Positions 2,964 through 53,170 of a stretch of 64,000 nt of DNA are shown piece after piece. The stretch lies in contig NZ_JAATJA010000001.1 in NCBI RefSeq assembly GCF_011927665.1, positions 911,019 to 975,018 on the forward strand, written 5' to 3'. Source of the stretch: Desulfobaculum xiamenense. Its GTDB lineage: Bacteria; Desulfobacterota; Desulfovibrionia; Desulfovibrionales; Desulfovibrionaceae. The position numbers were made by a program, and so were the translations under genes. A model generated the notes under the pieces. It was not told where the DNA came from and searched no databases. It worked only from the letters and a program-made list of their open reading frames with translations. Numbering within the stretch: position 1 is the first letter of the stretch; each line of letters opens with the position of its first letter.

Positions 2964-3149
2964 CGGGTCTCCGCTGACAGCACAAGAGGCACGCAAGGCC
3001 GCAAGGGAAGAGTCCGCTGCGGTCACTGCGGCCGAAAAGCCGTCATGCCATGATCTTTGTTCCCGGCGGCACATCCGTGACATGGCCGCGGGCAGGTTGG
3101 ATGGAAACGATTCCCGTTCGGTTCGGCGGACATGCATCCGCCCCGGACG

Positions 3150-3295
3150 GGAACGCTTCAGGCTGGGTGGCTGGCTCATTCCACTTCAAAACGCCCCAAA
3201 AGGACGTATCGAAGACGGATAAATCACAGCGGCGGAACCGCTCCGGACTCGCACCGGATTCCCTCGCGCGCCCGGTCTGGCGCACCTGAAGTCTT
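3150..3295 (-). ncRNA. Cobalamin (B12) riboswitch aptamer in the nrdD leader
   Basis: On the minus strand the leader carries the hallmark core in order: GGTGC, then GAGGGAATCCGGTGCGAGTC, CGGAGCGGTTCCGCCGCTGT, and a downstream B12-box-like GAGCCAGCCACCCAGCC. The ends pair through CTTCAGG (near 3287-3293) and CCTGAAG (near 3157-3163). Riboswitches of this family bind adenosylcobalamin and lower expression. B12 control of B12-independent isozymes such as NrdDG is known in other bacteria. Between the aptamer and nrdD lie strong helices (GGCGGA/TCCGCC and CGTTCCCGT/ACGGGAA), but no clear U-run, so the switching mechanism is not evident. Confidence 0.88.
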
Positions 3296-3299
3296 CAAG

Positions 3300-3799
3300 C
3301 AATCGAGTGCGCGGTACTAGCAAAAACCCCCACCCCATTCAAGGCCGAAATGCCGCGATTTTCGGGGATATCCTCGCATAGCGTCGTACCCTCTCCACCC
3401 CGCGAGGCAACACTGGCAACGCCTCCCCACCACTTCGTCACCACGCGGACACACCCCGCCAAGGCGTTTTTCTCGCGAAAACGCCCATAGGGCGGATTGG
3501 GGGGGGGGCGGGGACGTGAATACTGGCCAACTCACAACTCAGATATACTGGAGGAGTAACCACTTGATGAGATGCATTACAGACGTTTTTGGAAGGCATC
3601 GGATTCGAAAGACATCAAAATATACTTAATAACTTTTTAAAAATATCCAAAACGAAAAGATTACTACTTCCGCAATATTAAATGTGTCCCCTACCGTTTA
3701 GACACTCAATAATATTATTTTATCCCGTAATACAGGAAACACTGGCCGCATTTCCACAATCTACCGTTGAATTCCAAAAAACAAACCAATCCAAGAGGG
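3300..3799. other. Intergenic region entering the AT-rich hxs island
   Basis: No credible gene. The first 230 bases are GC-rich, with C- and G-runs near 3326 and 3500. From about 3540 the composition shifts sharply to AT-rich (for example around 3620-3780), marking the left boundary of the hxs island. The short frame 3317-3535 has no family resemblance and is not called. The promoter for the nrdD leader should lie just above 3300, but I could not assign its elements with confidence. Confidence 0.6.
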
Positions 3800-4360
3800 T
3801 CAAGGTGTTAAGGCTATCGTAGCGTTGATTTTTTCAAGAAGGCTAGAACTAGGAATCCCGTCTGTCGGCAAGCCATGCTCAATTTGAAACAACAAAATCG
3901 CACGTTTTGTCGCAGTTCCAAACTTACCATCCACTTCCCCAACAGGATAGCCGAGTTTTTTTAACCCCCTCTGTATTTGCTCCACTAAATATTGCGCAGC
4001 TTGAGGCGCAGAGACAGGCTTTTCCTTGGCTACCTTGGGGGTGGAATAGATTGGGCTGGGACTCACGGGAGACTTAGGAGCGGGGCTATAATAGTAGCCC
4101 CCAGAGGACGAATAATGGCTTCGATGACTGCTATGGCTCCTGTGACTACTGTGACTTCGATGGCTCCGATGCCCTGCAATCATCAATTTTTGGTCTGGCT
4201 GCGCATAGTCTAGAAAAAAAAGACTATCATCTTGCTGATTGGCTGATGAAATGCCCTCAAGATTAGGCGGCCCCGCATACCCTTGTTCTGCATCTACACC
4301 TATTGAAGAAGCCAAAATTGCGGCTAGCGCAATTTCTTTCATTTTTCCAGCCTTGATCAT
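3800..4360 (-). CDS. hxsA: His-Xaa-Ser repeat protein HxsA, predicted modified and exported target
   Basis: 186 aa. It has an N-terminal signal-peptide-like segment (basic start, then hydrophobic residues 9-20, with Ala-rich cleavage possibilities near 24-29). Seven consecutive His-Xaa-Ser triplets follow at residues 64-84 (HRS, HRS, HSS, HRS, HSS, HRS, HYS), then a Ser/Pro/Tyr-rich linker. The C-terminal peptidoglycan-binding-like domain spans about 122-180 (RGLKKLGYPVGEVDGKFG). This is the architecture of the HxsA family, always found with two radical SAM proteins and HxsD. The inferred role is to be the peptide substrate, modified at the repeat and then exported to the cell wall. It is the last gene of hxsDBCA, 16 bases after hxsC; AGGGTGAG lies before the ATG. 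Confidence 0.88.
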   Translation of the reverse strand: MIKAGKMKEIALAAILASSIGVDAEQGYAGPPNLEGISSANQQDDSLFFLDYAQPDQKLMIAGHRSHRSHSSHRSHSSHRSHYSSSGGYYYSPAPKSPVSPSPIYSTPKVAKEKPVSAPQAAQYLVEQIQRGLKKLGYPVGEVDGKFGTATKRAILLFQIEHGLPTDGIPSSSLLEKINATIALTP

Positions 4361-4376
4361 AATCTCACCCTAATAT

Positions 4377-5483
4377 TTATTTTATAGCCTGAATTCCCCT
4401 GCTATGTTTATCCACACCAGCGAAGAAAATCCCCCCGCATAACTCTTTCTTCATGCAATCTGTGCACATGTCAATATACCTCACTTTCCAATTGCATATT
4501 GATTTAACACAATACTGCCAAAGGACTTCATGAACGACGCAAAGCTGGTGGTTGAATATTGACACAGGAATCCCTGTTCTCACGAAATTTTTAACGGCTT
4601 CTTTCAGTTCATCTTGATAATCCACTGGATCGACCCATAGGGTTTCAATATTCTTTCTTGCCAAGCCAATCGGCTCCATCCCCATTAGAGCCACACGCCC
4701 CACAAAAGGCATATTTTTGGAAACAAAATCTGCCCATTTCTGAAGCCTTGAAACATTGGGGGAGAGAATGACATTTCTCAGTTCAATATTAGCTGACAAT
4801 TTGCCCAGATGATGCAACGCCTCCATCGTTTCCCAAAATGCTCCATTAACACCGACCAACGCATCATGCACAAAAGGAGTATCTGCATACAACGGAACAC
4901 AGAACGTGACGCTATCATCAGAAGCATCGACGATTTCCAATGCTTTTTGCGCATCCTTCAAGACTCGTGCATTTGTCAAAAGCTGTATATTGGCTCCTGG
5001 CAAATACTGCCTGACATACCCAATTAGGCGAACAAAATCATCATAATATAGCAATGGTTCACCACCAGTAATAGCAATCACTTCCGGGACAACATTTACT
5101 AAAGACAATATATCCTTTACTTCTTCATAGAATTTCCTTTGATGCACACAAGGCGGCTGAGGACACATCACACATCTACTATTACAGTTGTCTGTAACCA
5201 AGAAAGCATTCTCATCAGAATTATTTTCAAAAACAACGAACAAATCCCCCACACTATTTATTCTAACTATATCGCCATCTTTCAAAATGATCCGCTGTGT
5301 ACTGTACCACGCCGGACTAGTGAAAACGCCTACATTCGGTTGTCCGCACCTAATCAACCCAAAACCCCTCTCCGCAGGAAAAGCAAGCAAGTATGAAATA
5401 CCTTTATCATCTTCCTTGACTAAATCGACTCTCCCCACCTCGTACCCTTCAATGTTGTAGGCTATTCCACGATATGCTAGCAT
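4377..5483 (-). CDS. hxsC: Radical SAM protein HxsC
   Basis: 368 aa. The radical SAM cluster motif is CNSRCVMC (C100, C104, C107), followed by a TGGEPLL SAM-contact motif and a cysteine-containing C-terminus (CTDCMKKELCGG), which suggests an extra metal site. In the Hxs system this is the second of the paired radical SAM enzymes; it presumably acts on the His-Xaa-Ser repeat of HxsA. I chose the ATG at 5483 because GGAG precedes it and it starts 5 bases after the hxsB stop. The longer frame to 5561 would overlap hxsB. The N-terminal 95 residues form a separate small domain. Confidence 0.88.
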   Translation of the reverse strand: MLAYRGIAYNIEGYEVGRVDLVKEDDKGISYLLAFPAERGFGLIRCGQPNVGVFTSPAWYSTQRIILKDGDIVRINSVGDLFVVFENNSDENAFLVTDNCNSRCVMCPQPPCVHQRKFYEEVKDILSLVNVVPEVIAITGGEPLLYYDDFVRLIGYVRQYLPGANIQLLTNARVLKDAQKALEIVDASDDSVTFCVPLYADTPFVHDALVGVNGAFWETMEALHHLGKLSANIELRNVILSPNVSRLQKWADFVSKNMPFVGRVALMGMEPIGLARKNIETLWVDPVDYQDELKEAVKNFVRTGIPVSIFNHQLCVVHEVLWQYCVKSICNWKVRYIDMCTDCMKKELCGGIFFAGVDKHSRGIQAIK

Positions 5484-5487
5484 AACA

Positions 5488-6939
5488 TTACTCCACGACC
5501 ACGTCGCCCAAAGGGCGTCGGCACGCCCAAGCCCAACACAGGTCAACCACAAAAGAATCATCCGACCGAAGCAGCTCCATCAAAAAATCAAACACTGCTT
5601 TATTTTTTTGGCACTGATGGTCTTTTGGCTTAATGCTAATTCGCCTTCCAAGTTCGAAAAAATTTCTAACGGGGTCAGTACCACAGTAAGGCGAATACGC
5701 ACACCAAGCGCATCCAGGCAGAGATTCGATTACCGAATCTTTAAGAATATCATATAGCTTTTCGCTGACAAACCACTCTTGTCTACTGTCTTCCAAAACA
5801 TTCCCAAGAAAAAAATTCCGTTCCCCTGTCATTCTACAAAGCATCCTAGCTTCATCGGACACAAAAACATCCCCATTTGTCTCGTATACCATCCCACATA
5901 TTGCAGCTCCAGCTGGAGACTGCAAATCGACAAAACCACACGAAAACGGTGTAAGAATCCTTGAAAGAAGAATAGAGGCATATTCTTCAGCGAAGTCCAC
6001 CCCGCCCCTATTAATCTCAATGATATACCGGATTGCATCTATATATGCATCAAGAAATGTTTCAACACTATACGACAGCTCGTTTTTGTTTTCATAAGCA
6101 TATCCATACGGATTCATTGACCGTAAGAATATGGACTTAAATCCTCTAGCAACATATTCATCTACCACATCTTTCAGACGATGAACATTCCCCTTGTGAA
6201 TAGTAAGAAGCGCAGCAACCCTATCAACCCCACCATGTCTAAGCCTATTCACACCGTCTACCACAGATTGATAAGTACCATACCCACATTTTGTGAGACG
6301 ACAGCTATTATGCAGCGCTTCCGGGCCATCCAAAGACGTCGAAATTTCGATATCATGCTCGTTGATGAATTCAATTTGTTCGTCGCTTAACATAGTAAGG
6401 TTTGTACAAATCACAAATCCAACATCCCTACCATTGGGAACAACTTCTTCTGCATATCTTACAGCATGCTTAACTGCATCAAAGTTTAAGAGTGGTTCAC
6501 CTCCTTGAAATTCAATCTTAACATAAGAAGACGGACTCTCAAAAATTGCATCAATTATCCCCTCTACAACCTCCGGTCCCATATCGATTTCGACGGAGCT
6601 ATCATCGCTTGCCGCAGAAGCATGACAATACAAGCATTTCTGATTACACCTATGGGTGACAACCATCATGTGCAAAGATGTAGATTCAAATAGAAACCTC
6701 TTCTTCGTTCTGTACCTCGTTGAATAATGACCAAGTAACGCTTCATTAAATTCTTTACATACGAAAAATTTACTTTCCAAATCAAGAAACAACTCACAGC
6801 TTCTTTCCAACTGCATATTTACAAACTTTTTAAAGTCATAATTGCTTAAAAAATGATATTCGCCAATATCATTAGTAATTAGTACGTGATCTCCCCTTCT
6901 TCGGAAATTAAATGGCAATATTAAATATGGCTCTTGCAT
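5488..6939 (-). CDS. hxsB: Radical SAM protein HxsB
   Basis: 483 aa. Starts MQEPYLILPFNF, typical of the family, and has the cluster motif CNQKCLYC (C98, C102, C105), FQGGEPLL as the SAM motif, and a SPASM-like C-terminus with Cys residues in AAICGMVYETNGDVF, CAWCAYSPYCG and HQCQ. It should use reductive cleavage of SAM, with auxiliary clusters, to modify a peptide. I chose the ATG at 6939, one base after the hxsD stop, because GGAAG precedes it; the upstream start at 6972 would overlap hxsD by 32 bases. It forms the enzyme pair with HxsC. Confidence 0.9.
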   Translation of the reverse strand: MQEPYLILPFNFRRRGDHVLITNDIGEYHFLSNYDFKKFVNMQLERSCELFLDLESKFFVCKEFNEALLGHYSTRYRTKKRFLFESTSLHMMVVTHRCNQKCLYCHASAASDDSSVEIDMGPEVVEGIIDAIFESPSSYVKIEFQGGEPLLNFDAVKHAVRYAEEVVPNGRDVGFVICTNLTMLSDEQIEFINEHDIEISTSLDGPEALHNSCRLTKCGYGTYQSVVDGVNRLRHGGVDRVAALLTIHKGNVHRLKDVVDEYVARGFKSIFLRSMNPYGYAYENKNELSYSVETFLDAYIDAIRYIIEINRGGVDFAEEYASILLSRILTPFSCGFVDLQSPAGAAICGMVYETNGDVFVSDEARMLCRMTGERNFFLGNVLEDSRQEWFVSEKLYDILKDSVIESLPGCAWCAYSPYCGTDPVRNFFELGRRISIKPKDHQCQKNKAVFDFLMELLRSDDSFVVDLCWAWACRRPLGDVVVE

Positions 6940-6940
6940 A

Positions 6941-7279
6941 TTATTCTTCCACTTTGCGGGACAGGCTTCCAAAAGGAAGCTTTAGACTTGATTCTATCGC
7001 CTTAGCGACTAACAAGTCTCTCATTGCCCCAAATTTATTTTCCAAAACAATTCGCAACTGGTTATCCAACACGGCCTCACGAAACTTTTTTTCAATTTCA
7101 GCAGTCACAAGATAGTCATCTTCGACAATTTCGACCCAAATACATTCTTCATCCTGCCCAATATTGCAGGCGAACAAATTACTATGCTCATAAGCCGCAC
7201 GCTGAACGGCTTCCAAGTAAAAAGACCGAAGACAAAAACACATTCGAAATCGCGTCTGCTTTGTCATTTTCTCTTGCAT
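6941..7279 (-). CDS. hxsD: HxsD, small partner of the His-Xaa-Ser system
   Basis: 112 aa, first gene of the hxs operon. Sequence features are YLEAVQRAAYEHSN, a central acidic stretch (EECIWVEIVEDDY) and AVLDNQLR. Size, position and neighbours fit HxsD; a role in recognising or presenting the substrate is plausible but unproven. Two starts are possible, 7279 and an ATG four codons downstream (7267); neither has a strong ribosome-binding site. Like the rest of the locus it is much richer in AT than the flanking genes. Confidence 0.8.
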   Translation of the reverse strand: MQEKMTKQTRFRMCFCLRSFYLEAVQRAAYEHSNLFACNIGQDEECIWVEIVEDDYLVTAEIEKKFREAVLDNQLRIVLENKFGAMRDLLVAKAIESSLKLPFGSLSRKVEE

Positions 7280-7664
7280 TTAATTGCCTACGTAAAGAAT
7301 TTAAAAAACAAAGCAATATAGCAACAAGCGTACAGCCGTTAGCAACGACTACAACCTAAAAACTAATACCACAACAACGCCAACCTAATATAATCCACAA
7401 AGCCAGGCCATGTCACTCCAACCATTACGGAAGAATAAAGTTCTCTGAAAGTCATACCACCGGCAACTTACAAAATGCTCATTCTTGGCTGGAGAGCGTC
7501 CTCAAATAGCCGCAGCGCCTCCACCCCAACAAGCGACAACACGAGAGGACGTGCGCGACTCCAACCTTGGGATACCAGACTTGTTAACACGATCTCTGGC
7601 ACACCTCCAGCACGACTTCTAACTTGGCTAGTGTATCCAGTCGAATAGGGACGTCTCCACACGA
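7280..7664. other. Intergenic region, right boundary of the hxs island
   Basis: AT-rich to about 7470, then returning to normal composition. It must contain the hxs promoter. I see no gene: the minus-strand frame 7468-7677 overlaps the ssb terminator and has no recognisable features. I found no inverted terminal repeats, tRNA or transposase that would show how the island entered. Confidence 0.55.
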
Positions 7665-36999: not shown

Positions 37000-37302
37000 A
37001 TGAGCAGGAATCGCAGGACGTACGATGCGGAGTTCAAGCGGAATGCCGTTCGGATGGTCGAGGAATCAGGACGGGCGGCGTCCGAGGTTGCGCAGAGCCT
37101 AGGGATTGGAGTGGATCTCATCTATCGCTGGCGGCGTGAGATGCTCGGTCAAGGGCAAGTCGCATTTCCAGGCCAGGGCAAGGAGGCCCTCACGGATGAG
37201 CAGCGCAGGATTCGGAAACTTGAAAAGCAGCTCAAGGATGCCGAACTTGACCGGGATATATTAAAAAAAGCATTGGCCATATTCAGCAAGGCACCAAAAT
37301 GA
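37000..37302 (+). CDS. IS3-family transposase OrfA
   Basis: 100 aa. N-terminal HTH of the Tnp_1 type (RRTYDAEFKRNAVRMVEESG; SEVAQSLGIGVDLIYRWRRE) and a leucine-zipper C-terminus (RKLEKQLKDAELDRDILKKAL). It binds the terminal repeats. The run AAAAAAAG near the end would allow a -1 shift into orfB to make the OrfAB transposase. Confidence 0.93.
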   Translation: MSRNRRTYDAEFKRNAVRMVEESGRAASEVAQSLGIGVDLIYRWRREMLGQGQVAFPGQGKEALTDEQRRIRKLEKQLKDAELDRDILKKALAIFSKAPK

Positions 37303-38177
37303 AATTCTGTTTCATCAGGGACCACCGCTCGCAGTTTTCGGTGAAGAGGATGTGCCACGCGCTCAAGGTTTCCAAGAGCGGATATTATGCATGGATAGGC
37401 CGCAGGCCGTCACGACGGACCGCCGAGACGACACGGCTGCGTCATCGAATTTTCCAACTCTACGAAGAGCATTCGGGATGCGTCGGCAGTCCCATGATCA
37501 CTGCCGATCTGCGTGCCGAGACCGAATTCCGGCATGTAAATCGGCAGCGGGTTGCTCGGCACATGCGGCAGCTCGGATTGCGCTGCCAGACCTCTCGCCG
37601 ATTCGTCGTGACGACGGACTCGAAGCATGCCGAACCGATTGCTCCCAATCTGCTCAATCGAGACTTCACGGTATCCGCCCCCAACACCGCTTGGGTCACA
37701 GATATCACCTATCTCAAGGTCGGCCGGAAATGGCATTATCTCACGGTTTTCATCGACCTGTTCTCGCGCATTATCGTTGGGTGGGATTTGAGCGATTCGC
37801 TCGAAAGACATCCGGCCATAAGGGCTTTTCACAAGGCCCTTGCGCGAAGGAAGCTGTCACCCGGCCTTCTGGTCCACAGTGACAGGGGAATTCAGTTCGC
37901 CAGCTACGATTTTCGAGCGGAACTGAAACGGCACGGCTGCGTCCAGAGCATGTGCCGCAAAGGGAATTGCTGGGACAACGCCGTGGCAGAATCCTTCTTC
38001 CACACCCTTAAGACCCACTTCATCCGACATCGGCGGTTTTCAGAGCGTCTTGAGACGGAACTGGCGCTGTTTCAATACATCGAGGCCTACTACAACCGAA
38101 GGCGAAGATATTCCTTAAATGGCTGGATGTCGCCTGCCGAATTCGAGAAACAGCTCGTTATGATGGAAGTGGCTTAA
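37299..38177 (+). CDS. IS3-family transposase OrfB (DDE catalytic part)
   Basis: 292 aa. An HTH_21 segment (RHRIFQLYEEHSGCVGSPMI) and an rve integrase core with the DDE residues in VTDITYLKVG, HSDRGIQFAS and NAVAESFFHTLK. ATG overlaps the orfA stop; production is expected through -1 frameshifting. The frame is intact, so the element may be active and could act on the deleted copy at 39844-40629. Confidence 0.93.
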   Translation: MKFCFIRDHRSQFSVKRMCHALKVSKSGYYAWIGRRPSRRTAETTRLRHRIFQLYEEHSGCVGSPMITADLRAETEFRHVNRQRVARHMRQLGLRCQTSRRFVVTTDSKHAEPIAPNLLNRDFTVSAPNTAWVTDITYLKVGRKWHYLTVFIDLFSRIIVGWDLSDSLERHPAIRAFHKALARRKLSPGLLVHSDRGIQFASYDFRAELKRHGCVQSMCRKGNCWDNAVAESFFHTLKTHFIRHRRFSERLETELALFQYIEAYYNRRRRYSLNGWMSPAEFEKQLVMMEVA

Positions 38178-38397
38178 CTGGTGGTCCACTTTTGTGTGGC
38201 AGGATCAGTAACAGGATCACTTTGTCTGCGCTGTCGTTGACACCTTCGTTGAGTCCCAAGTCGGCTACGGTTCTGTCGTAGGTGTGGCTGACATCGGCTA
38301 GTCGAGGTGGTCTAGCCTTTCAAGCCTTGTTGAAGCAGGGAGTGACGACAAGGCCATAGTCGACATGGGCCATATCCCGATAGGCGCAAGGTGAATG

Positions 38398-39672
38398 CTA
38401 CTCGGAGCCGTCCTTGGGTTTTTTGGTGAAATTTTCTAAGGAGGATGACGCCTTGTCTATGCTTGCTTTGATGCTGTTGGTGAATTCTGATCCCTTGTCT
38501 AATAAATTTTTGAATCCTTTCGAATCAATGAATTCTTGCATTGGGCTTCCGTGGACGGCAGTTTCGATTAATCGCAATGGGGCCTCTTCAAGGCGAGTTA
38601 ATGCTGCATTGAATAATCTAGAATAGAAATCTTTATCGAGGTTGACGGCTTCCTTCCTGTATCCTTCGTATGCTTTTGCTGTAGAGGCCTTGAATGCATA
38701 GTCTTCTGCAACCTTGAATCGTTGGCCGATCTGCTTGGTTGATAGCCATGCTAGCCAAATTGGAGCGCCTACTCCTATTATTGAAAGGATAACATGCATC
38801 CAGACTGTGCCCCAGCTTGGATTAGGAGCGTCTAGTATCGGTTGAAGTGTGTCGAATCTGTTTTTTCCGATAATTACTGCTGTTGCAAGGGAGCATACAA
38901 GACCTCCAACCCACCATCTCATCGATCTCATCAACTCTGTTGCGCGTTGATCAAATGCTGCTGCAAGTCCCTTTGTTGTTGTGATCATGTATGCTTCTTC
39001 GCACTTTTCGACAATTGCATTTGTTTTTTCTTCGCAGTTGCAAACAGTTTCGTGCTTTTTTTCAACTTGATTTGTTTTTTCCGTTACTTCTGCAAGTAGT
39101 TCGACGCATCGCTTGTTGATTTTCTTTATTTCTTCCTGTGCCTCTCTGAGGTCTTGCAGGCTTGTTGGAATGTTTTCTGCGGATTCTGTTGCCTCGCTAA
39201 TAAGAAGTATTTGTTCCTTGAGGCGTTCCTTTTTTGGGGCAATGTCATTTATGTCTGCCTGAATAGACCGAAGTCTGTTTCGTATCTTTGTTGGAAGGTA
39301 TTTACCGTCGTCTATTTCCCATGGATATTGTGGGATCATTATCGTCGTGTAGTAGCCAATTGTGGTCTGTATTGATAATATAATAGGAACCGGGTTCGAG
39401 TTTATTTGAGGTATGGACTGCTGTCTTATGAGATCGAATCGTCTAGCTGCTTCTTGGATAACTTCATTATCCACATTTTCGTTAATGCTGTTTTGGCATT
39501 CGTCGACTTTCCTCCTGAACTCCAAAACAAGACTCTGCAATTCTTTTGCGTTGATTGCGGGTTGATTCCACCCGTGTTTTTCGATGAAAGTGTGTCCGTT
39601 GGAATTTGTAGATTCAATGGCTTCCGCCAGTTCATCTAACGAATCGGCTAAGATGTTAATAGTATCTCCCAT
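38398..39672 (-). CDS. Coiled-coil membrane protein of unknown function
   Basis: 424 aa, AT-rich. Long coiled-coil region (about 145-230, with KKERLKEQILLISEATE and EVTEKTNQVEKKHETV), two membrane helices (about 250-268, WWVGGLVCSLATAVII, and 287-308, HVILSIIGVGAPIWLAWLS), then a cytosolic segment QRFKVAEDYAFKASTAKAYE shared by a group of uncharacterised membrane proteins. It lies between two inverted copies of the same IS, as in a composite transposon. A defence or stress role is possible but only inferred from context. SD is weak. Confidence 0.6.
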   Translation of the reverse strand: MGDTINILADSLDELAEAIESTNSNGHTFIEKHGWNQPAINAKELQSLVLEFRRKVDECQNSINENVDNEVIQEAARRFDLIRQQSIPQINSNPVPIILSIQTTIGYYTTIMIPQYPWEIDDGKYLPTKIRNRLRSIQADINDIAPKKERLKEQILLISEATESAENIPTSLQDLREAQEEIKKINKRCVELLAEVTEKTNQVEKKHETVCNCEEKTNAIVEKCEEAYMITTTKGLAAAFDQRATELMRSMRWWVGGLVCSLATAVIIGKNRFDTLQPILDAPNPSWGTVWMHVILSIIGVGAPIWLAWLSTKQIGQRFKVAEDYAFKASTAKAYEGYRKEAVNLDKDFYSRLFNAALTRLEEAPLRLIETAVHGSPMQEFIDSKGFKNLLDKGSEFTNSIKASIDKASSSLENFTKKPKDGSE

Positions 39673-39843
39673 TGGTGTCTCCTATGCGAAGTATTGCTGT
39701 TGAAAAATTATGATGGAGATATGTCCTTTTGCTTAGAATGGCAACTAGCTTTCCTATTAAAGTATGCTTGCTACAATTATTGCGGCGGCTTTCCCGCCGG
39801 CATCTGGCAGGAGATGAATATACCTCATTGTCGGCTTGATATC

Positions 39844-40629
39844 CTGATCCTGCCACACAAAAGTGGACCACCAGTTAAGCCACTTCCTTCATAACGTGTT
39901 GTTTCTCGAATTCGGCAGGGACATCCAGCCATTTGAGGAATGTCTCCGCCTTCGGTTGTAGTAGGCCTCGATTTATTAAAACAGCGCCAGTTCCGCCTCA
40001 AGACGGCCTGAAAACCGCCGATGTAGGATGAATTGGGTCTTGAGAGTGTGGAAGAACGATTCTGCCACGGCGTTGTCCCAGCAATTCCCTTTACGGCTCA
40101 TGCTCTGGACGCAGCCATGCCGTTTCAGTTCCGCTCGAAAATCGTAGCTGGCGAACTGAATTCCCCTGTCACTGTAGACCAGAAGGCCGGGTGACGGCTT
40201 CCTTCGCGCAAGGGCCTTGTGAAAAGCCCTTATGGCCGAATGTCTTTCGAGCGAATCGCTCAAATCCCACCCAACGATAATGCGCGAGAACAGGTCGATG
40301 AAAACCGTGAGATAATGCCTTTTCCGGCCGACCTTGAGATAGGTGATATCTGTGACCCAAGCGGTGTTGGGGGCGGATACTGTGAATTCTCGATTGAGCA
40401 GTTTGGGAGCAATCTGGTCGGCATGTTTCGAGTCCGTCGTCACGACGAATCGGCGATAGGTCTGGCAGCGCAATCCGAGCTACCGCCCGTCCCGATTCCT
40501 CGACCATCCGAACGGCATTCCGCTTGAACTCCGCATCGTACGTCCTGCGATTCCTGCTCATCCACTGCTCCTGTTTGCTTGTCAGGATAGTGGTTCAACT
40601 GGTGTTTCACTTTTGTGTGGCAGGATCAC
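39844..40629 (-). pseudogene. Deleted copy of the IS3-family element
   Basis: About 786 bp with both ends preserved (TGATCCTGCCACACAAAAGT on the left). Relative to the complete copy it lacks some 495 bases, joining orfA residue 25 directly to the middle of orfB (GRAV then ARIALPDL). It also has two adjacent stop codons in place of the codons for Gln-Tyr before IEAYYNRRRR, and a one-base deletion near the end. It cannot make transposase but its ends could still be mobilised by the intact element. Confidence 0.88.
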
Positions 40630-42239: not shown

Positions 42240-42479
42240 TCACACCAACTCCTCCGGCAGTCCCACGATTTCCACGAGCTGACGCCGTCGTTCCGGCGTC
42301 AGCTTTTCCGTTTTGGCGACGAGGACCTTGCCGGGCCAAGTGTGATGGACGCCGAGTTGGGCGGCGATGTCCTTAAAGGTCAGGCCGTGGTCGCGCATCC
42401 AGAGTTCAAGGCGTTTCTCCCTCGGGACTCCGGGGCCGAAGTCGAGGGGAAGGGTTGGGCGTATTATCCTGCGTCCCAT
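42240..42479 (-). CDS. Small HTH-like phage protein, 79 aa
   Basis: Starts MGRRIIRPTLPLDFG with GGGAG eight bases before the ATG at 42479. The middle (RLELWMRDHGLTFKDIAAQL then GVHHTW) looks like an HTH; the rest is basic. It overlaps the end of the large phage protein gene by about 75 bases. Probably a phage regulator or DNA-binding protein. There is no homologue I can name. Confidence 0.6.
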   Translation of the reverse strand: MGRRIIRPTLPLDFGPGVPREKRLELWMRDHGLTFKDIAAQLGVHHTWPGKVLVAKTEKLTPERRRQLVEIVGLPEELV

Positions 42480-45400
42480 GGGCATTCTCCCTGATCGGCG
42501 GCTTGCCGATGCCCTCGCGGGCGATGTTGATCATCTGGATATGGATGGCGTCGAGCGCCTCACGCTTCGCCTCGGGCGACGCGCTCCGGTCCTCCTCGAT
42601 GCGCCACGCCATGCGCCGCAGGAGCGTCAAGGCTCGCGCGGCCCTGTCCATGGTCTGCAGGTCGGCGGGCATCGCCACCCGCACGCCGCTTCCGCATAGC
42701 CCGGCGCGCTGTTTGGCGCTTTCGATCGTTCGCCTCCGCTGGTTGTAATGCCGATAAAAGACCTCCATCGACCGCGATCCCGACGCCGGAAACTCACGCA
42801 CCAGCCCTCGGATTCCGGGGATGTCCTGCCAGCTGCGGCGCGGCTCGGGCGGGATGTCCGCCACGCCGGACGCCTCAAGTAGCGCATCCAGCCCCTCCAG
42901 CGTCAGCCGCCCCAGCCCGCCCGTGAGCGAGCGTACCAGATTGTCCAGCTTGGCCGGAGAGCCTATCTCGCGCAGGCCCGGCACCTCGTGCATGGCCCTC
43001 GCCAGTAGCTTCAGCGTCTCCGGCGTGTGCGCACCGTACTGCAGCACCGGCTCCAGTTCCTCCTTGCCGCGCGGCACCGTCGGGCGGTCGAAAAACCAGT
43101 TCCGCCCGGCCCACCACTCCACGAACGGCGTCAACCCCGTGGGCATGATGCCCGGCCACATGCTTTCCAGAAACGCCCTGCCAGCCTCGGCCAGCCCCTC
43201 AGGATCGTCCCGATCCATCCAGTCCAGCACCATTTCCGGGAAACTCCCGAACAGAATCCCCGGCGCGTGCGGCTTGGGTAGGCTCAGCACATAGGGCTTC
43301 GCGCCCTGCGGCCGCACCACGACGTTCCAGAACAGAATCCGCCGCCACGCCTTGAGTTCCTGATAGACCGGGTCGTCCTTCTGCGCGAGCCAGAGCAGAA
43401 TGCTCGGCAGGGTGATGCCCATGAACGCCCGCGCGGCGTAGCGTTTCGGATTCGAGCGCATGGCCCGCACCATCCGGTCCGTACCGCCCACCGTCGCGCG
43501 CCAGAACGCCACCAGCATGTTCATGGCCAGCGTCTTCGCCCCACCGCGCGAGAAATCGATGGTCAGATCCCTCGCAGCGATGGCCGCCTTCAGGTGCCCT
43601 GCCCCGCTCGGATCGCGCCGGGTCCGCGCCTCGAAATCGGCAACGCGCGTCGCCTCCTCCGTGGCCTCGGAAAACGCGCGCAGCACATCCAGCGGATGCC
43701 GGACCAGACGCCCCACCCGGCGCGACCGCTCGGCCAGCAGGTCTTCCAGATTTCTGGAAAGATAATCCCGATCCAGCGATACAAGCGCCCCGTGCGCCCC
43801 GCCGCTGGCGTAGAAGCGCTTGTAGGCCTCGTCGCGCCGCAGGACGTGAAACAACCCGCGCATCATGGAAAAATACGGAACGTGCAGTTCGTCGGAATTG
43901 AGGAAGGCCTCGAAGGTGTCGCGCCCGGGATTGCGTAGCGCGAACTCCGGCGCGAGCGTCGCCCCGGCGCGCAGGATGGACGCAGGAAGCGAGAGAATCC
44001 GCAGGAGCAGGCTCGGCGCTTCGGGATTCAGCCCCTGCACGGCGCGGTAAAGCGTCGAATCAAGCTCCACAAGGTATGGGCGCCCCCGGTGGTAGAAGAG
44101 GACCTCGCCCGGCCCCGTGCGGTGGAAATCCGGCCGGAAAGTCTGAAAGAAAGTCGCCAGACGCTGAAGATCCTCGACACGCAGGCCGTTCTTCTTCAGC
44201 ACTGCCTCCACCCCCGGCAGGCCTTCCTCGCGCAGGAAGGCGGGGTCGGTCACGATGGTGAGCACCCGGTCCACGGTCGCCACGTCCGCCACGAGCGACG
44301 CGACGACCTCCGCATAATCCCCGAGCTTCCCGCCCATGCCCGAAAGCATCTGCACCAGCTGGTCCAGCGCCTCGCGGGTGGTGACGCGGTTGACCTTCAG
44401 ATGCAGCGGCTTGGCCTCGATCATGCCACCAAGCCCTTCCACGCGCGTCAGTTCGATGAGAGCGGTCCCGACGCGATTGCGCTCGGCGACGTTCATGAAG
44501 GCGTAGGTGTTGCGAAGGATGGATTCCGTGGGCGGGATGATGTCGCGCGAACTTCCGCGCAGCCGCTTCACCGGCGAAAAAAGGTTCCCGAAACGCCGAC
44601 GCGATGTGCCAGCCGCGGATGGCGTCTCGTGCTCCACCACGCGGTGCAGCGGCGTATAGAAGAGGTTGTTTCGACGGATGAAATCCGCGCTCTCCACGGA
44701 AATTCGCCCGCTGTCCACCAGCAGTTCCAACAGCGCGTCGCAGTACCCGCCAAGCTGATCTGCGGCGGTGACCACGTCCGGATGCGCGGCACCGATTTCC
44801 TCGACGACATTCCCCCAGACCTCCTGCGGGACGATGCTCCTGAATCCGCCGGACACCCGAGAATCCGTGCGGGCGCGTCTGGCCACGAGAAATGCGTCCA
44901 ACTGGCGGCGCAGGCCCTGACGCTCGATGGGCAACAGGATTTCGCGCAGGGACGGTCCCGTCACCTCGTAGCCCTCACTGCCGATGCGAAACGTGCCCCA
45001 CTTGAGGAAATGCTCCGCCTTGCCCACCCAGCCGCGCAGCGCCCATGCCAGAAGGTACGGATTGCGCTCCGCAGCGAGGCTGCCGCCCCGACGCTCGGCC
45101 GCCATGTCGGCCAGCACCTTGAACGGACGCAGCTCGTCCACCACCTGCGTATAGATGTCGTTGAACGTCGGGAACCAGCGCCGTCGCCTGCCGCCGTCAT
45201 GATCGATAAGGGACAGGACCTTTGCCACGTCCGGTTGCGCCAGCCATTCCTCCCACTGCTGCCGAACGCGCGAGAGCAAATCCATCAGCTCCGGACGCTC
45301 GGCAAGGCTACGCTCGAACAGCGGACAGAAATTCGGAGCGGCCTCCCGCACCATGGCCTCATTCGTGATCCACAACCGCACGAATTCCGCGAAACCCTCG

Positions 45401-45671
45401 CTGTCTAGATCCGTGGCCCCGGCATAGGCCAACCGCCGCACCTCCTCCGGCATGACCGACGGCAGGGGCATAAGCCCCTGCTCCTGAATGTGGTGGGCAA
45501 TCTCGTGCGCGGCGACCTCGACATCGTTGGCCTGTCGCAATCGGACGACCTGCGGACGAATCTTGTACAGCCCGGCCAGCTTTCCCCGCACCCCGCCCAC
45601 GCACCAACGGCACGCGAAAAGCCGGGCCGACCATTCAGCCAGACTTCTAGCACGGAGTTTTCAGGGGGCTA
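42406..45671 (-). pseudogene. Truncated large phage polyvalent protein with metallopeptidase-like motif
   Basis: The frame is open from a stop near 45671 and continues for about 1088 codons. The only early start is GTG 45600 (1064 aa), yet the codons upstream also look coding (EWSARLFACRWC), so the true N-terminus seems lost. Features are a zincin-like AAHEIAHH near residue 31, a long helical body, and a C-terminal region (about 600-1000) resembling the large polyvalent protein domain 38 of phage. Such proteins are packaged virion or ejection proteins. A shorter product from 45600 could still be made. Confidence 0.6.
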
Positions 45672-45862
45672 TCGACGAAGACCGCCAGAGAACGCTGGAA
45701 TGCGCAGATAGGGGCTTGACATGGTTCAGGAATCGCAACCGGAACGCAGAACGCGCACCGGCTAGGTGGGGGAGGTGGAAATGGGGAAAAAAGGAGGGAA
45801 AGGGGGAATGCCGAACTCAGCGGCTAGACGAAGCGAATCCTCACCGCCTCTCGGCGATGGGG

Positions 45863-46993
45863 TTACCACACCAGATCATAGGCGACACTCCGGCCTCCGG
45901 CTTCACGCGGCGCAAGGACGCCCTTCTCGACCAGATCGGCAATTTCCCTGTACGCGGTTGCCCGCGAGGTCTTGGTCATGCCGCCGTACTTGCGGTTGGT
46001 GAGTCCGCCCTCGAATCCGCCGGGGCCTGCATCCAGCAGCCTGTTGACGACCTTGCGTTGACGGTCCGACATCGGCGTCGAAACGTGCCGACGCCAGAAC
46101 TCGGCCTTGAGCAGAACCCGCTCCATCGTCCGCTCGGCGTTGTCCACGGATGAACCGACCTGTTCGACGAACCAGAGAAGCCACGCGGTGACGTCGCACC
46201 CGCTCTTCTGCGTCCGTTCGAGGACTTCGTAGTAGTCCTTGCGACAGCTCATGATCTGCGCGGAAAGGCTGTAATGCCTGAATGGGCGATTCTCGTCCTG
46301 CGCGAGAGCCATGTCTGTGAGCGTACGGGCGATGCGCCCGTTTCCGTCATCAAAGGGATGAATGGTCACGAACCGCAGATGCGCCAGCCCCGCACGGAGA
46401 ACCCCGTCCAAGGTCGTCCTGCTGCCGTTCCACCACGCAATGAATGATGCCATCTCGGCTTCAAGCGCTTCCGGTGGCGGCGCGACATAATGCACCCGAG
46501 GCCGATTGATCGGTCCGGACACAACTTCCATGCGCTCCTGTCGCCACGCCCCGACCACGATGCGCCCAAGCCCCGACTGACCCGTCGGAAACAACGCCGC
46601 GTGCCAAGAGCAGATACGCTCCGCCGTCAGCGGTTCGCCGTGGTTTCTGGTCGCGTCCAGCAGGACCTGCACCAGTCCGTCCGTAGCCCGATCCGCAGGC
46701 CGCAGACCGCCCTGCTCCAATCCCAGATGCGTCGCCACGGAAGAACGGACCATTTCCCGGTCGAGCCGCTCCCCTTCGATCGCCGCCGTCTGAACGGCGT
46801 CCTCTTCGAGCGTCTCGGCCTGCGCCTTGAGATCCTCCGCCAGTCCCGAACTCTCAAACCGAGCCTGCAACCGCCCCTGCCGCCTTCGGCACTCGGAAAG
46901 CGGCCCAAGCAACTGCCCGGAATCCCACGTCAAATCAGGCCATCCATCCTGTTCCCAGATATACCGAGGCATTCCCCACTCCAATCGCTTCAT
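45863..46993 (-). CDS. Fic-domain protein with inhibitory helix and C-terminal winged helix
   Basis: 376 aa. Class II Fic architecture: inhibitory motif TAAIEG (69-74), then the catalytic HPFDDGNGR (212-220) with complete residues for AMP transfer and the flap SGPINRPRVHYV. The C-terminus (about 300-376, NRLLDAGPGGFEGG, SRATAYREIADLVEKGV) is a winged helix, so it may bind DNA. Fic enzymes AMPylate target proteins and are held inactive by the inhibitory helix. An operator array sits at its start codon, which suggests autoregulation. It lies between phage relic genes. Confidence 0.9.
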   Translation of the reverse strand: MKRLEWGMPRYIWEQDGWPDLTWDSGQLLGPLSECRRRQGRLQARFESSGLAEDLKAQAETLEEDAVQTAAIEGERLDREMVRSSVATHLGLEQGGLRPADRATDGLVQVLLDATRNHGEPLTAERICSWHAALFPTGQSGLGRIVVGAWRQERMEVVSGPINRPRVHYVAPPPEALEAEMASFIAWWNGSRTTLDGVLRAGLAHLRFVTIHPFDDGNGRIARTLTDMALAQDENRPFRHYSLSAQIMSCRKDYYEVLERTQKSGCDVTAWLLWFVEQVGSSVDNAERTMERVLLKAEFWRRHVSTPMSDRQRKVVNRLLDAGPGGFEGGLTNRKYGGMTKTSRATAYREIADLVEKGVLAPREAGGRSVAYDLVW

Positions 46994-47026
46994 ATTTTGA
47001 AGCGATTATGACGGATAATCGCTTCA
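46983..47026. promoter_or_regulatory. Operator array at the Fic start codon
   Basis: Three copies of a 10-11 base element in alternating orientation: AATCGCTTCA (46983-46992), TGAAGCGATTA (46998-47008) and TAATCGCTTCA (47016-47026). The last two are a perfect 11-bp inverted repeat with a 7-base spacer, and the first two form a second palindrome with a 5-base spacer that includes the ATG. The Fic winged helix is the likely binder. Confidence 0.75.
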
Positions 47027-47147
47027 GGCGCAAGGGGGGATATCTGTCCGAGGACTAACCGAGTAACCCTAATAACCTATCAGGTCACATTGACGAGTAT
47101 CTCTATTTGATCGCCCCATAATACGCAACAATGTTGATACAAATGGA

Positions 47148-48989
47148 TTATGCTGCCGAGATAACCTCCTCTGGATTTAAGGAAGCCTTGCGCAACACCT
47201 CTGATTCTTTATACTGCGACGCCTCAGCATGCATAGTCCAATGGGCTTCTACGCCCATCCGCTCAACAGCCTTTCGTATCTGAGTTATCCCAACCTTGAA
47301 AAATTCCTTTCGATTATTAACAAGATTGATCTGTTCAGCTTTGAATACATGGTGCAAAGCATTTTCAAGTGCCGGAGCATCATCGCTGAACAGCATGGCG
47401 TGAACATCAAATGGGAATGGAACACTGGCATCACCAAGCTCGCGCACACGATCAAGAGGTTCAAGACGACGTGTCATTCCGATTTTGTATATATCTTCAC
47501 CGAATGAACCAATATTCGAGATAACATAGACATGACCACACCGTGTCTGTTGAGCCATGGAAAGTGCCCGAGCATTCTTGGCTTCCGCCTCTGCCAACTT
47601 TTCCTGCAACTCTTGCAGCTGTTGCTCAAACACCTCACGCTGCTCTTCGTTCGCTTGTTCGAGTGCCTTTTGCGTCTTCATCATCTTGCCAATGATACTT
47701 TTTTCTTCTTTCTCTGCCTCCTTCTTTGCTTTTTCATATTCTTGTCGTGCTTTCTCTTCTTCACGCATTATTTCGTTGATACGACGTTGCTCTTCATTCG
47801 CTTCAAGCTTAAGTTCTTGCGTCGTCACTGCCCAACGCAATTCATCAAGGCGCGCTTTAAGATATTGAGGTTCAATGCGCGCATTTCGAAAGGCTTCCCC
47901 TGTGCGGTTGACCAAATTAAATGCGTCTAAAATTTCTTGCTTAAGCTTACCAAGATTATCATGCCGAACTTTTGAAAGTGCAGTATCCACCCTACCGTTA
48001 AAGGCATCAAGCACGAACCTAATTGCGGTTTCTCTCTTATATTTTTCTACATACTCACATGTAGCGGCAAGCCCCTGTTTAATCATTTCCCGTGTATGCT
48101 TGCGTGCTTTCTTCAGTTCTTCTCCGGCCTGCTTATACTCAAACTCATCAGCAAGGATATCGAGCACACTCCGGTTCGGCACAAGGTATTCGTCGCCATA
48201 ACCATTAATCATATTGCGCATGGCCTGCACAGTCTTCGCATACATTTCGGCCTTGCCTTTCGCCTTGTATGCATCTCCTGCTATACGTTCAGCCTCGTCT
48301 TTGGCCTCGGCGACGATGCGACGCGCAGTTTCAGCTGCCTGCTCCAGACGTATCTGTTCTACCTCACGCAATCTCTTCGTTTCTGCTCTAGTTTCCGCAA
48401 GTAGTTCTTTTTTCTTGAGTGCAACGTCTTGATTGATTCGACGCGCATTTTTCCTAGCCTGATCCAACTGCCCTTGCCCTTTATCCCGTAGCCGTTTTGC
48501 CTCGTCGGCTGCATCTGATAAAATTCTATTTTTATCTACCTCTGCGTCTCTTCGCATGGTTTGAATCTGTTTTTTCGCATCATCAAGTTGTGATCGACAA
48601 ATATTGCGCGATTGCTCCGCTTCTTCTTTCGCACCTAATAAAATCTTTTGCTTATCAGATTCAATCTCTTGCACCATTCTTAAAGACTTTTCCTTCGCTT
48701 CTCTCAAAACATCCTGTGCTTCTCGTTTAATGCGCAAAGATTCAGCTTCTGCGCTTAGTATCCCCTTATATTTACGTAGGATTTTTAACTCTTCGCAATC
48801 TACCAATGCCTGTTCAGATTTTACAATTAATTCATTTTTTACCAAATTCAATTCATCAAATATTACAGAAACTTTTTGCTCTGCCTCTTTCAAAGCTTTG
48901 TTCAATCTTTTCCTCTCACCAATAAAGAATACAAGCAATCCAATGGTGATCACTAAAACCGAACAAAGCATGCCAAACTGATCGCTCAT
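47148..48989 (-). CDS. DUF4041-type coiled-coil protein with a T5orf172 (GIY-YIG-like) C-terminus
   Basis: 613 aa, AT-rich. N-terminal membrane helix (about 5-24, MLCSVLVITIGLLVFFIG), very long coiled coil (25-470), then a GIY-YIG-like domain: VYVISNIG (487-494) and IYKIGMTRR (500-508), with ALENALHHVFK. This matches the DUF4041 plus T5orf172/MUG113 arrangement. Proteins of this type occur in phages and genomic islands; nuclease activity is inferred only. The catalytic Tyr and Arg of GIY-YIG are present. Confidence 0.82.
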   Translation of the reverse strand: MSDQFGMLCSVLVITIGLLVFFIGERKRLNKALKEAEQKVSVIFDELNLVKNELIVKSEQALVDCEELKILRKYKGILSAEAESLRIKREAQDVLREAKEKSLRMVQEIESDKQKILLGAKEEAEQSRNICRSQLDDAKKQIQTMRRDAEVDKNRILSDAADEAKRLRDKGQGQLDQARKNARRINQDVALKKKELLAETRAETKRLREVEQIRLEQAAETARRIVAEAKDEAERIAGDAYKAKGKAEMYAKTVQAMRNMINGYGDEYLVPNRSVLDILADEFEYKQAGEELKKARKHTREMIKQGLAATCEYVEKYKRETAIRFVLDAFNGRVDTALSKVRHDNLGKLKQEILDAFNLVNRTGEAFRNARIEPQYLKARLDELRWAVTTQELKLEANEEQRRINEIMREEEKARQEYEKAKKEAEKEEKSIIGKMMKTQKALEQANEEQREVFEQQLQELQEKLAEAEAKNARALSMAQQTRCGHVYVISNIGSFGEDIYKIGMTRRLEPLDRVRELGDASVPFPFDVHAMLFSDDAPALENALHHVFKAEQINLVNNRKEFFKVGITQIRKAVERMGVEAHWTMHAEASQYKESEVLRKASLNPEEVISAA

Positions 48990-49169
48990 TACGCCTTCTC
49001 CATGCCGCTTAGTAGCTTATCGAAACAAAAAACGACAAACAGATATCTAACGAGCGCGCTTAATGCAACCAATCAGAGCACCCCACAATTACAACTCACT
49101 ATCGACACAAATGCACAAAAGCACCAAAGGCCATAAATTTCTCAAAGGTGATACCCACGCACTCCCAAT

Positions 49170-49355
49170 TCACCGCCTTTGAAATGTTAAACGATACCAG
49201 CTCGCCAAATCCCCGCTCCACGCGCGGTAGCGGCCCTGTTCGTCGGGGTAGGCGGGGCAGTTGTATTCGCGGATCCAGCGCATGAGCTTCTTTTCGCCGA
49301 TGCCGAAGAACTTCATGAGTTCGCGTTTTCCGCAGATCATTCTCGGCTGCTGCAT
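49170..49355 (-). CDS. Small HTH phage protein, 61 aa
   Basis: MQQPRMICGKRELMKFFGIG followed by EKKLMRWIREYNCPAY and a WYRL end: a MerR-like/Nu1-like HTH typical of small terminase partners or phage excisionases. The ATG overlaps the stop of the upstream gene (TGATG) with GGAGG upstream, so it is a real member of the terminase operon. Confidence 0.65.
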   Translation of the reverse strand: MQQPRMICGKRELMKFFGIGEKKLMRWIREYNCPAYPDEQGRYRAWSGDLASWYRLTFQRR

Positions 49356-50008
49356 CAGTACCCTCCAACTGCGTCTGCCGGGCCTGCGGACCTGCCGCGC
49401 CGGATTGCTGGTCTGGGGTGGGTGAGGTCGAGGGCGGCGACGGCGCAGAAGAGTGCGGCCGCCGGGGGGTGGTCGTCGAAATCCACTCCGGAGAGGTCCG
49501 GCGGAAACGTCGCGAGGTCATTCGGGATGAGGCTTTCGCCGAAATGGAGCGTCTTCTGGGTGGCCACGCGCTTTCGGACCATGGCGTTGTAGAGCACGAG
49601 CGCGTTGCCGTCGTAATAGTGCGGCGGCGCGACAACCCGCACCCGCGCGCCCCGGTCGCGCTCCAGCTGCGCGTTCAACTCGCGAAGCGCTGTGCGCTCG
49701 AAGATCGACTGTGGAGCATGCCAGACGGGCACAAGCCACTGCCGCGACAATTCGAGCGCACAGCGAAGCAGCGGCTCCGGATGCATGAAGGATTCGCCCT
49801 GCCACTGCGCACTCTCCGCCAGACGATGCAGGTGCCGCACGCCAAAGTCCGCGTCCTCGTGCAGGTCCTCGCCCACCACCACGAGAAACCCCGGCCTGCC
49901 GCGTCCGGGCCACGCCAGACCGCCCGCCACCCGCCGATAGCGCCGACCGTCCGCCCCTTCGAAGAACACGCCGGTCATGGCCGATTCCCTGCGCGTCATG
50001 TGCCGCAT
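49355..50008 (-). CDS. Phage protein adjacent to the terminase, 217 aa
   Basis: Starts MRHMTRRESAMTG; GGGGTGAG lies before the ATG at 50008, which is four bases after the terminase stop. It has GGLAWPGRGRPGFLVVVGEDL and HAPQSIFERTALRELNAQL, then ALVLYNAMVRKRVATQKTLH. No recognised domain. Its length, tight spacing and high GC mark it as part of the packaging operon. Confidence 0.65.
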   Translation of the reverse strand: MRHMTRRESAMTGVFFEGADGRRYRRVAGGLAWPGRGRPGFLVVVGEDLHEDADFGVRHLHRLAESAQWQGESFMHPEPLLRCALELSRQWLVPVWHAPQSIFERTALRELNAQLERDRGARVRVVAPPHYYDGNALVLYNAMVRKRVATQKTLHFGESLIPNDLATFPPDLSGVDFDDHPPAAALFCAVAALDLTHPRPAIRRGRSAGPADAVGGY

Positions 50009-50011
50009 CGC

Positions 50012-51592: not shown

Positions 51593-52187
51593 CGCCACTC
51601 CCCTCGCCGCCCCCGCCTACGGGCGGCACTCTCGTTTGCAGGCCCTTCCGCCGCATTGCGTCCGGGATGGCCAGAAAAATCCGGGGAAAAATTCCGAGCG
51701 GCCCTCACCCTCGCCGAACAATCACCCCCGGGGGGATGGCGCGGCGGGTACCGGCGCGCTCGGGTGGGGTGGGTCGCCGTCCTGCGCCCAGTCGCCGTCC
51801 GGTCGCCTCTGCGCCCGCGCGCACGCACACACGCCTGCCCACGTCCCGCCGCTGCCTCGCCGCCGCCTCTTCGCCCGGACACCTGCCCTGCCTCTTCGCC
51901 CACTCACCTGCCCACTCGCCTACCCACGTCCATCGCCCTTTCCGCCGTCCGCACGCCTCGCGCCACGGCGAATTCCGCCTGAAAATCAGCGCCCGGCCGT
52001 GCTATCCGGGACTGCTCATTGTCTCATAATGGTCATTCAGTTAACTTTGAGATTGCTCAATACGCCTTGCGATTCGGCATGTTGTACGCATCAACCGCCG
52101 CGCTCCTCGGCGCGCCCTGTTATTTCGGGAGAATTTCGCCACCGCGTAACACGGTTTCGCCAAACCCCGAGCCGCCAGACCATACGA
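51593..52187. other. Low-complexity GC-rich region upstream of the terminase
   Basis: About 600 bases. Between about 51770 and 51960 the plus strand is rich in imperfect CCTGCC, CGCC and CCCAC units, which create long open frames without meaning. Nothing else is recognisable apart from the presumed terminase promoter. Confidence 0.5.
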
Positions 52188-52403
52188 TCACATGCCGCAG
52201 CCAGCCCTGAACTCCAGGGCGCTTCTCGCCGCGTTGACCTCCACCAGCCGCTCGGTGATGCGCCGCTGCACCTCCGGTGCCGCCTTCCCGATCTCCTCCA
52301 GCACCACAGTCTGGAATTCCTGCACCTGCCGCAGATCGTAGATGCGGGCCTTCATGCTGAAGTCCAATTCCAGCTGCTTGCGAAGCTCGCCCTGCAGCTT
52401 CAC
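52188..52403 (-). CDS. Possible small phage protein, about 71 aa
   Basis: Frame with a GTG at 52403 (VKLQGELRKQL) and an ATG at 52355 (MKARIYDLRQVQ). The sequence QEFQTVVLEEIGKAAPEVQR and ITERLVEVNAARSALEF looks like a helical phage protein of the packaging region, but no ribosome-binding site is clear. It is upstream of the terminase on the same strand. The frame continues to 52490 but there overlaps the toxin remnant on the other strand. Confidence 0.45.
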   Translation of the reverse strand: MKLQGELRKQLELDFSMKARIYDLRQVQEFQTVVLEEIGKAAPEVQRRITERLVEVNAARSALEFRAGCGM

Positions 52404-52483
52404 GCACGCCGAAAGCAGAATTGCTCTCTTGACTTTGTACCATTCTTTAGTACGCAAACAAGGAAACAACGACGGCGTAGCGC

Positions 52484-52708: not shown

Positions 52709-52730
52709 ATCAAACTGGTGGAGGTGACAT

Positions 52731-53072: not shown

Positions 53073-53170
53073 CGCACAAAGGCTAACTGCGCTAATCCAC
53101 ACAGCCCTCAACTCAACCGCTTGTTACTGAGGCAATCCGAACGACAGGCCTGCGAATTCTTTTCTCGCCC

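Follow-up and report, generated by a model that had tools for sequence, protein, structure and literature searches.

What two radical S-adenosylmethionine (SAM) enzymes do to a protein that carries a run of His-x-Ser triads is the question raised by an operon of Desulfobaculum xiamenense. The operon, hxsDBCA, lies on the minus strand at positions 3800–7279 of a 64,000-nucleotide stretch of DNA, which was analyzed as a whole and is called the window here. An earlier note, made from the letters alone, had recognized a complete operon of four genes at this place and had called their chemistry and role unsettled. Family membership and reading frames bear out the former, and the open-access literature and current NCBIfam naming agree with the latter. 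The name of the Hxs system goes back to Haft and Basu (cited in PMC9062424). In the open-access literature searched, only two papers deal with Hxs proteins in context, one of which cites Haft and Basu and regards the maturation as putative, while the other lists the genes for a Pseudomonas aeruginosa genome. We found no report of Hxs chemistry or of an Hxs product in the open-access literature; subscription journals lay outside the search, so published chemistry may exist. In NCBIfam of June 2026, the term “cyclophane-forming” is used for other characterized families, not for HxsB. The best explanation of the data as a whole, which we hold at a probability of roughly 0.47, is that a horizontally acquired Hxs operon would make one crosslinked, wall-anchored protein. 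Beyond the first reading, the analysis adds the horizontal origin, a leader motif, Ala and Asn variants of the triads, and shorter gene starts.

The curated NCBIfam cut-offs (June 2026) are 370 bits for HxsB (TIGR03978), 267.9 for HxsC (TIGR03977), 50 for HxsD (TIGR03976), and 121.65 for HxsA (TIGR03979). The earlier note had proposed a profile hidden Markov model search of all four proteins and had staked its reading on the two radical SAM proteins matching the Hxs models. Both lie well above their cut-offs, HxsB at 522 bits and HxsC at 323 bits. The two small proteins fell short, HxsD just under its cut-off at 47.1 bits (E value 2.3e-12), with an operon position that fits, and HxsA clearly under at 83.5 bits (E value 1.8e-23). 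Like the known Hxs system (TIGR03976–TIGR03979), the window locus consists of four components arranged D-B-C-A, with HxS repeats and a C-terminal peptidoglycan-binding domain; it differs in the scores of HxsA and HxsD, which do not reach the curated cut-offs. We are virtually certain that the locus is an Hxs system, and by these scores, its small components HxsA and HxsD are somewhat divergent within it.

All four frames are intact, and the intergenic gaps measure 1 to 16 bases. The genes encode proteins of 112 (hxsD, 6941..7279), 483 (hxsB, 5488..6939), 368 (hxsC, 4377..5483), and 186 residues (hxsA, 3800..4360). All four genes are present as the earlier note had it. The mechanical open reading frames (ORFs) are too long for hxsB and hxsC; they overlap the upstream gene, and their extra parts lie outside NCBIfam model coverage. 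The start of hxsB is most likely the ATG at 6939, giving 483 rather than the 494 residues of the mechanical ORF, because the hxsD stop and this ATG form TAATATG. Likewise, hxsC most likely starts at the ATG at 5483, directly past the hxsB stop, and encodes 368 residues, not 394. We compared the locus with about 100 hxs loci from relatives. The window has the usual D-B-C-A order, found in 41 of 94 related loci, and either this order or A-D-B-C is seen in most of them.

The putative substrate is HxsA. It begins with a signal-peptide-like N-terminus (residues 1–24; 4289..4360), judged by sequence reading and likely cut after VDA. The leader motif SLFFLDYA (residues 46–53; 4202..4225) follows, 10 residues ahead of a core that reads HRS HRS HSS HRS HSS HRS HYS (residues 64–84; 4109..4171). 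A Gly/Ser/Tyr/Pro linker then leads to a PG_binding_1 wall-binding domain (residues 126–177; 3830..3985; PF01471, 54.4 bits, E value 1.5e-14). All of these features are on the minus strand. The signal-peptide-like start, the seven H-x-S triplets, and the peptidoglycan-binding-like C-terminus had each been pointed out before, and we recovered all three. In 20,000 shuffles of the window HxsA, the longest tandem triad run was 2, compared with the 7 observed. The codons of the core are mixed (CAT/CAC, AGC/AGT/TCG, and three kinds of Arg codon), and its 9-nucleotide units have a mean nucleotide identity of 60%. Therefore, the repeat has been kept at the protein level, with no recent DNA expansion.

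The related cores show which positions may vary. Core length ranges from 4 to 9 triads in 87 HxsAs. Across 634 triads from 98 cores, His is never substituted inside a core, that is, no non-His first position stands between two triads. Position 3 is Ser in 618 triads, Ala in 8, and Asn in 5, with the other 3 at core edges. At position 2, most residues are Ser, Tyr, Arg, or small ones, and none is Pro, Asp, Leu, or Ile. A Desulfobacca-like locus (L150) has the core HWN HYS HRN HSA HWA HYA HRA HYS HYN, in which 7 of 9 triads are H-x-A or H-x-N, and it keeps hxsD, hxsB, and hxsC. Because His is invariant and Ser is replaceable by Ala or Asn, the chemistry at the core seems to depend on His and not on the Ser hydroxyl. 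At a median of 11 residues ahead of the core, 77 non-redundant HxsA leaders share the motif [TS]-P-L-[VYI]-L-x-x-[ASG], whose information of 10.8 bits compares with 6.5–6.7 bits in 8 shuffles, these being the only control for a motif derived from the very sequences scored.

HxsB is a radical SAM enzyme whose CNQKCLYC motif was found as the earlier note described it, as was CNSRCVMC in HxsC. The “SPASM-like” cysteines also claimed for HxsB proved to be half of a SPASM set, with the part for auxiliary cluster II (AuxII) present and that for auxiliary cluster I (AuxI) absent. The solved relative with the longest alignment is the anaerobic sulfatase-maturating enzyme (anSME), in which the cysteines named below are AuxI and AuxII ligands and D277 is the catalytic base. 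The AuxII ligands C317, C320, C326, and C348 align to HxsB C410, C413, C419, and C443. The AuxI ligands C255, C261, C276, and C330 align to Ala, a gap, Ser361, and Pro423. In 69 non-redundant sequences, the radical SAM cysteines and C410, C413, and C419 are 100% conserved and C443 is 97% conserved. The AuxI ligands are absent across the HxsB family, whereas CX3CX2C and AuxII are kept, so that the full SPASM set of cysteines is lacking. HxsB is a half-SPASM enzyme because AuxII is kept and AuxI lost. Furthermore, anSME D277 aligns to the invariant HxsB D362, inside D362-E363-x-R365-M366. At this segment, HxsB of the Desulfobacca-like H-x-A/N lineage reads YPCDE where anSME reads YPCD, and this likeness supports the alignment. 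Overall, HxsB shares with anSMEcpe (PDB 4K36–4K39) the radical SAM core, the AuxII ligands, and the position of the catalytic Asp, but differs in the loss of all AuxI ligands, in an extra N-terminal domain of 90 residues, and in its substrate. This N-terminal domain may be a RiPP (ribosomally synthesized and post-translationally modified peptide) recognition element; a search with 23 of its sequences for such a likeness found no match in solved structures or Pfam.

Among non-Hxs profiles, HxsB scores best with PapB (NF047865, 128 bits), then with anSME (TIGR03942, 102 bits; cut-off 349). It lies below the cut-offs of the known cyclophane formers YhhB (73.9 bits; cut-off 445), GrrM/OscB (67.1; 310), and AmcB (63; 425). 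PapB, a ranthipeptide maturase that forms thioethers, joins Cys to Asp or Glu (PMC9413430). It is the top-scoring non-Hxs family, but the window HxsA has no Cys.

The second radical SAM enzyme, HxsC, has seven cysteines that are invariant in 72 homologues (C100, C104, C107, C315, C340, C343, and C349), the last four of which form an auxiliary cluster motif, C315-X24-C340-X2-C343-X5-C349. We found no solved structure of HxsB, HxsC, or HxsD. In an AlphaFold2 model of HxsC with a predicted local distance difference test (pLDDT) score of 94.6, the radical SAM core lies near viperin, SkfB, SuiB, and anSME, with Z scores of about 18–20 and root mean square deviations (rmsd) of 2.6–3.6 over 222–254 residues. 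The beta-rich N-terminal domain is hardly covered by whole-model fold matches. By profile, SkfB ranks first, followed by viperins and, weakly, the epimerase EpeE. SkfB (PDB 6EFN) is the best-scoring solved relative by profile, and by fold it is one of the best (Z score 19.5, rmsd 3.6, 231 residues). In their radical SAM cores, the two are 15% identical; the N-terminal beta domain and the four-Cys tail motif are HxsC’s own. The HxsD model (mean pLDDT 89.6) predicts a ferredoxin-like beta-alpha-beta-beta-alpha protein with a long last helix. A fold search returned generic ferredoxin-like or KH-like matches only, the best being VIA (Z score 8.4, rmsd 2.3, 73 residues), and Foldseek gave nothing below an E value of 0.001, so a function for HxsD could not be read from its fold. 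A Synergistales locus (L044) encodes a protein of 598 residues in which an HxsD-like domain precedes HxsB as a fusion (HxsD profile E value 2e-28 after iteration). This fusion suggests that HxsD and HxsB work together.

HxsA proteins come in two classes. Short HxsAs have only a few residues after the core; in long ones, a low-complexity linker and an extracellular-type domain follow, and the window HxsA is a typical long-class protein. PG_binding_1 is found in long HxsAs of Desulfovibrio, Lachnospiraceae, Klebsiella, Aeromonas, Agrobacterium, and selenomonads. Other long HxsAs carry bacterial immunoglobulin/cadherin-like repeats (L077) or PKD repeats (L098). In two loci (L098 and L085), a short and a long HxsA stand beside a single maturase set. 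The pattern HRS-HSS-HRS occurs in 19 of 22 long but only 3 of 55 short HxsAs (Fisher p 4e-12), for a pattern picked after viewing the data and in sequences that are related to one another. On the HxsB tree, the class switches at least 10 times; among independent pairs, an average of 4.6 have the pattern change with class and 0 against it (median sign-test p 0.06). The data are suggestive of an Arg-alternating core that goes with the long, wall-domain HxsA.

The operon stands out from its surroundings. Its guanine-plus-cytosine (GC) fraction is 0.38–0.45 (about 0.41), compared with 0.60–0.65 on either side (window about 0.62). The GC step delimits an insert at about 3540..7480, with approximate borders, that runs from the riboswitch region of nrdD to ssb. 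HxsB scores above cut-off in 6 of 99 relatives, the congener not among them, and matches at an E value of 1e-60 in 12 of 395 genomes of the phylum. Foreign base composition and patchy distribution thus mark the Hxs operon as horizontally acquired. The congener (G001) has a gap of 2.3 kb between nrdD and ssb, occupied not by hxs but by a helix-turn-helix (HTH) regulator and a HipA-like protein; this filling was seen as a HipB-like HTH gene and a HipA-like gene at L131:4100-5773. Since the same gap holds hxs or a HipBA-like pair, it is one site with exchangeable cargo. The HxsB tree is discordant with the species. The window HxsB groups with those of Halodesulfovibrio, another Desulfovibrio, a Lachnospiraceae bin, and a Moraniibacteriota bin, labels of metagenome-assembled genomes that may be mis-binned. 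The family spans many phyla. Of 409 plasmid records with HxsB relatives, 316 are from Klebsiella, most of them conjugative; Hxs relatives are also found in a Leptospira phage and IMG/VR contigs. On one Klebsiella pneumoniae plasmid (NZ_CP020109.1, L134), of the IncFII/IncFIB type and with resistance genes, a divergent hxsDBCA adjoins repA. In 13 lineages, different kinds of tyrosine recombinase are encoded no more than 8 kb from hxs.

A neighborhood search of the hxs loci found no universal fifth gene, only the mixed tyrosine recombinases and an optional methyltransferase, and no metal-transport or metal-regulator gene recurring beside the operon. A SAM-dependent methyltransferase-like gene stands soon after hxsC (median 118 bases) in L044, L057, L071, L072, L079, and Pseudomonas loci, and in L071 it appears in frame with the hxsC tail; it is possibly an optional further modification step. 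In the Leptospira phage and plasmid (L133 and L136), a gene annotated “mobilome CxxCx(11)CxxC protein” follows hxsC. A PADLOC scan showed defense-type genes near hxs, for which we claim no enrichment, as there was no background set. The mobile-element setting suggests that the benefit of Hxs may be conditional.

On sequence grounds, it is very likely that the radical SAM enzymes modify the triads. That the modification consists specifically of His-to-C-beta crosslinks is a tentative proposal, to which we would give not quite even odds. HxsB and HxsC, with HxsD as an HxsB accessory, would recognize the leader motif (SLFFLDYA) and treat the triads in turn. HxsB would take a hydrogen off the beta-carbon of residue 3 in the triad, and the carbon radical would couple to the His imidazole two residues earlier, closing a three-residue (i, i+2) cyclophane with a loss of 2.016 Da per triad, up to 14.1 Da here. 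HxsC might carry out a second step or act on part of the triads. The signal peptide would export the product, and PG_binding_1 would hold the rigid, Arg-rich segment at the peptidoglycan. Export and wall binding are probable, and the presence of PF01471 in HxsAs of distant bacteria supports the wall anchoring. The triceptide maturases HaaB, ScaB, YhhB, and MscB are likewise radical SAM enzymes that act on aromatic-x-residue triads. Ser, Ala, and Asn at position 3 all have precedents among triceptide enzymes, namely MscB (Phe-x-Ser), HaaB and ScaB (His-x-Ala), and XncB/OscB (Asn), and three of these maturases, HaaB, ScaB, and YhhB, employ His C2 (PMC11002830). The sequence relation of the triceptide maturases to HxsB is weak (the YhhB match, 74 bits, is confined to the N-terminal half). 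Hxs differs from them in its substrate, seven consecutive triads in a wall protein, and in having a second radical SAM enzyme and HxsD as standing partners. A stronger version seems to us somewhat unlikely: HxsB and HxsC would fuse every triad into His-to-C-beta rings, yielding a stiff polycyclic cationic rod on the peptidoglycan, and the operon would be a mobile envelope module that plasmids, phages, and islands carry and whose wall-anchored form has a distinct, Arg-alternating core.

Several points weigh against the crosslink proposal. Adjacent triads would mean many strained rings in succession, for which we know of no precedent. HxsB scores higher with PapB (128 bits) and anSME (102) than with YhhB (74) and GrrM/OscB (67). 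The Ala and Asn triads come from one lineage plus single cases, and they may be left unmodified. The proposal does not account for what HxsC and HxsD each contribute, and the anSME-type Asp would also fit Ser oxidation to formylglycine. HxsB would then be anSME-like, oxidizing the Ser C-beta to formylglycine or further, with the neighboring His or HxsC using the aldehyde; formylglycine would bring the same loss of 2.016 Da per triad as the cyclophane. The rank of anSME as second-best non-Hxs family and longest-aligned solved relative, the alignment of its base D277 to the invariant D362, and the presence of Ser in 618 of 634 triads all accord with such a course. However, the H-x-A/H-x-N lineages keep the whole operon though most of their triads have no Ser, HxsB has lost AuxI, unlike anSME, and the invariance of His is left unexplained. 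We consider Ser oxidation unlikely; a fixed His with Ser, Ala, or Asn tolerated two residues on favors a His-to-C-beta(i+2) bond over it.

Another His- or backbone-centered radical change, such as epimerization, a His-His (i, i+3) link, hydroxylation, or a ring of other size, possibly with HxsC as the main catalyst, would also explain an invariant His at every third residue. The profile of HxsC, nearest to the sactipeptide maturase SkfB, then to viperins and weakly to EpeE, points the same way, and two radical enzymes hint at two or more steps. The restriction of position 3 to Ser, Ala, and Asn has no explanation there, however, as a His-His (i, i+3) link needs no such restriction, and we find such a change doubtful. 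His at every third residue of a putatively exported, wall-bound protein would suit a mainly metal-binding (HxxH-like) envelope sequence, with any modification incidental. Two radical SAM enzymes conserved with their substrate across phyla would then be superfluous, neither the restriction of position 3 nor the leader motif would be explained, and the neighborhood of the operon has no recurring gene for metal transport or a metal regulator; this role is very unlikely. Finally, the window operon could have decayed or be unexpressed, carried along by a mobile element, as its low GC, its scattered occurrence (in 6 of 99 relatives and in 12 of 395 genomes of the phylum), and its exchangeable site allow. 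In one relative (G136, L157:4138-8148), an IS21-like transposition gene pair splits hxsB, with hxsC and hxsA intact. Against decay, the four window frames are intact and tightly spaced, all invariant residues are kept, and the synonymous codon variety of the core speaks for selection on the protein, so we give this account scarcely any weight.

Upstream of hxsD, a consensus scan gave a candidate sigma-70-type promoter, GTGACA-18-TATATT (7387..7416, minus strand), in a region whose site count equals that of shuffles; promoter and terminator scans of the hxs region gave site numbers no higher than in shuffled sequence. Just upstream of nrdD, the gene for the anaerobic ribonucleotide reductase, a cobalamin riboswitch (3144–3304, minus strand; RF00174, 56 bits) lies between nrdD and the hxs insert. 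Elsewhere in the window, at 37299–40473, a low-GC ORF (38398–39672) has an IS3-type transposase ORF on either side, one of the two being truncated. By reading of ORFs, a prophage-like stretch (42400–55777) that adjoins tRNA-Leu at 55691–55777 includes a large terminase subunit-like ORF (50012–51598), a Fic-like ORF, and an AAA ATPase with a small partner resembling RloA/RloB (53243–55169).

Hxs is thus a known family with unproven chemistry, and the comparison turns the question of its product into testable constraints: His is untouchable, Ser may give way to Ala or Asn, HxsB retains the anSME Asp but not AuxI, and the core has a leader motif ahead of it. If the consecutive crosslinks proposed here prove real, the operon would be an unusual genetically encoded route to a rigid polycyclic peptide at the cell surface.

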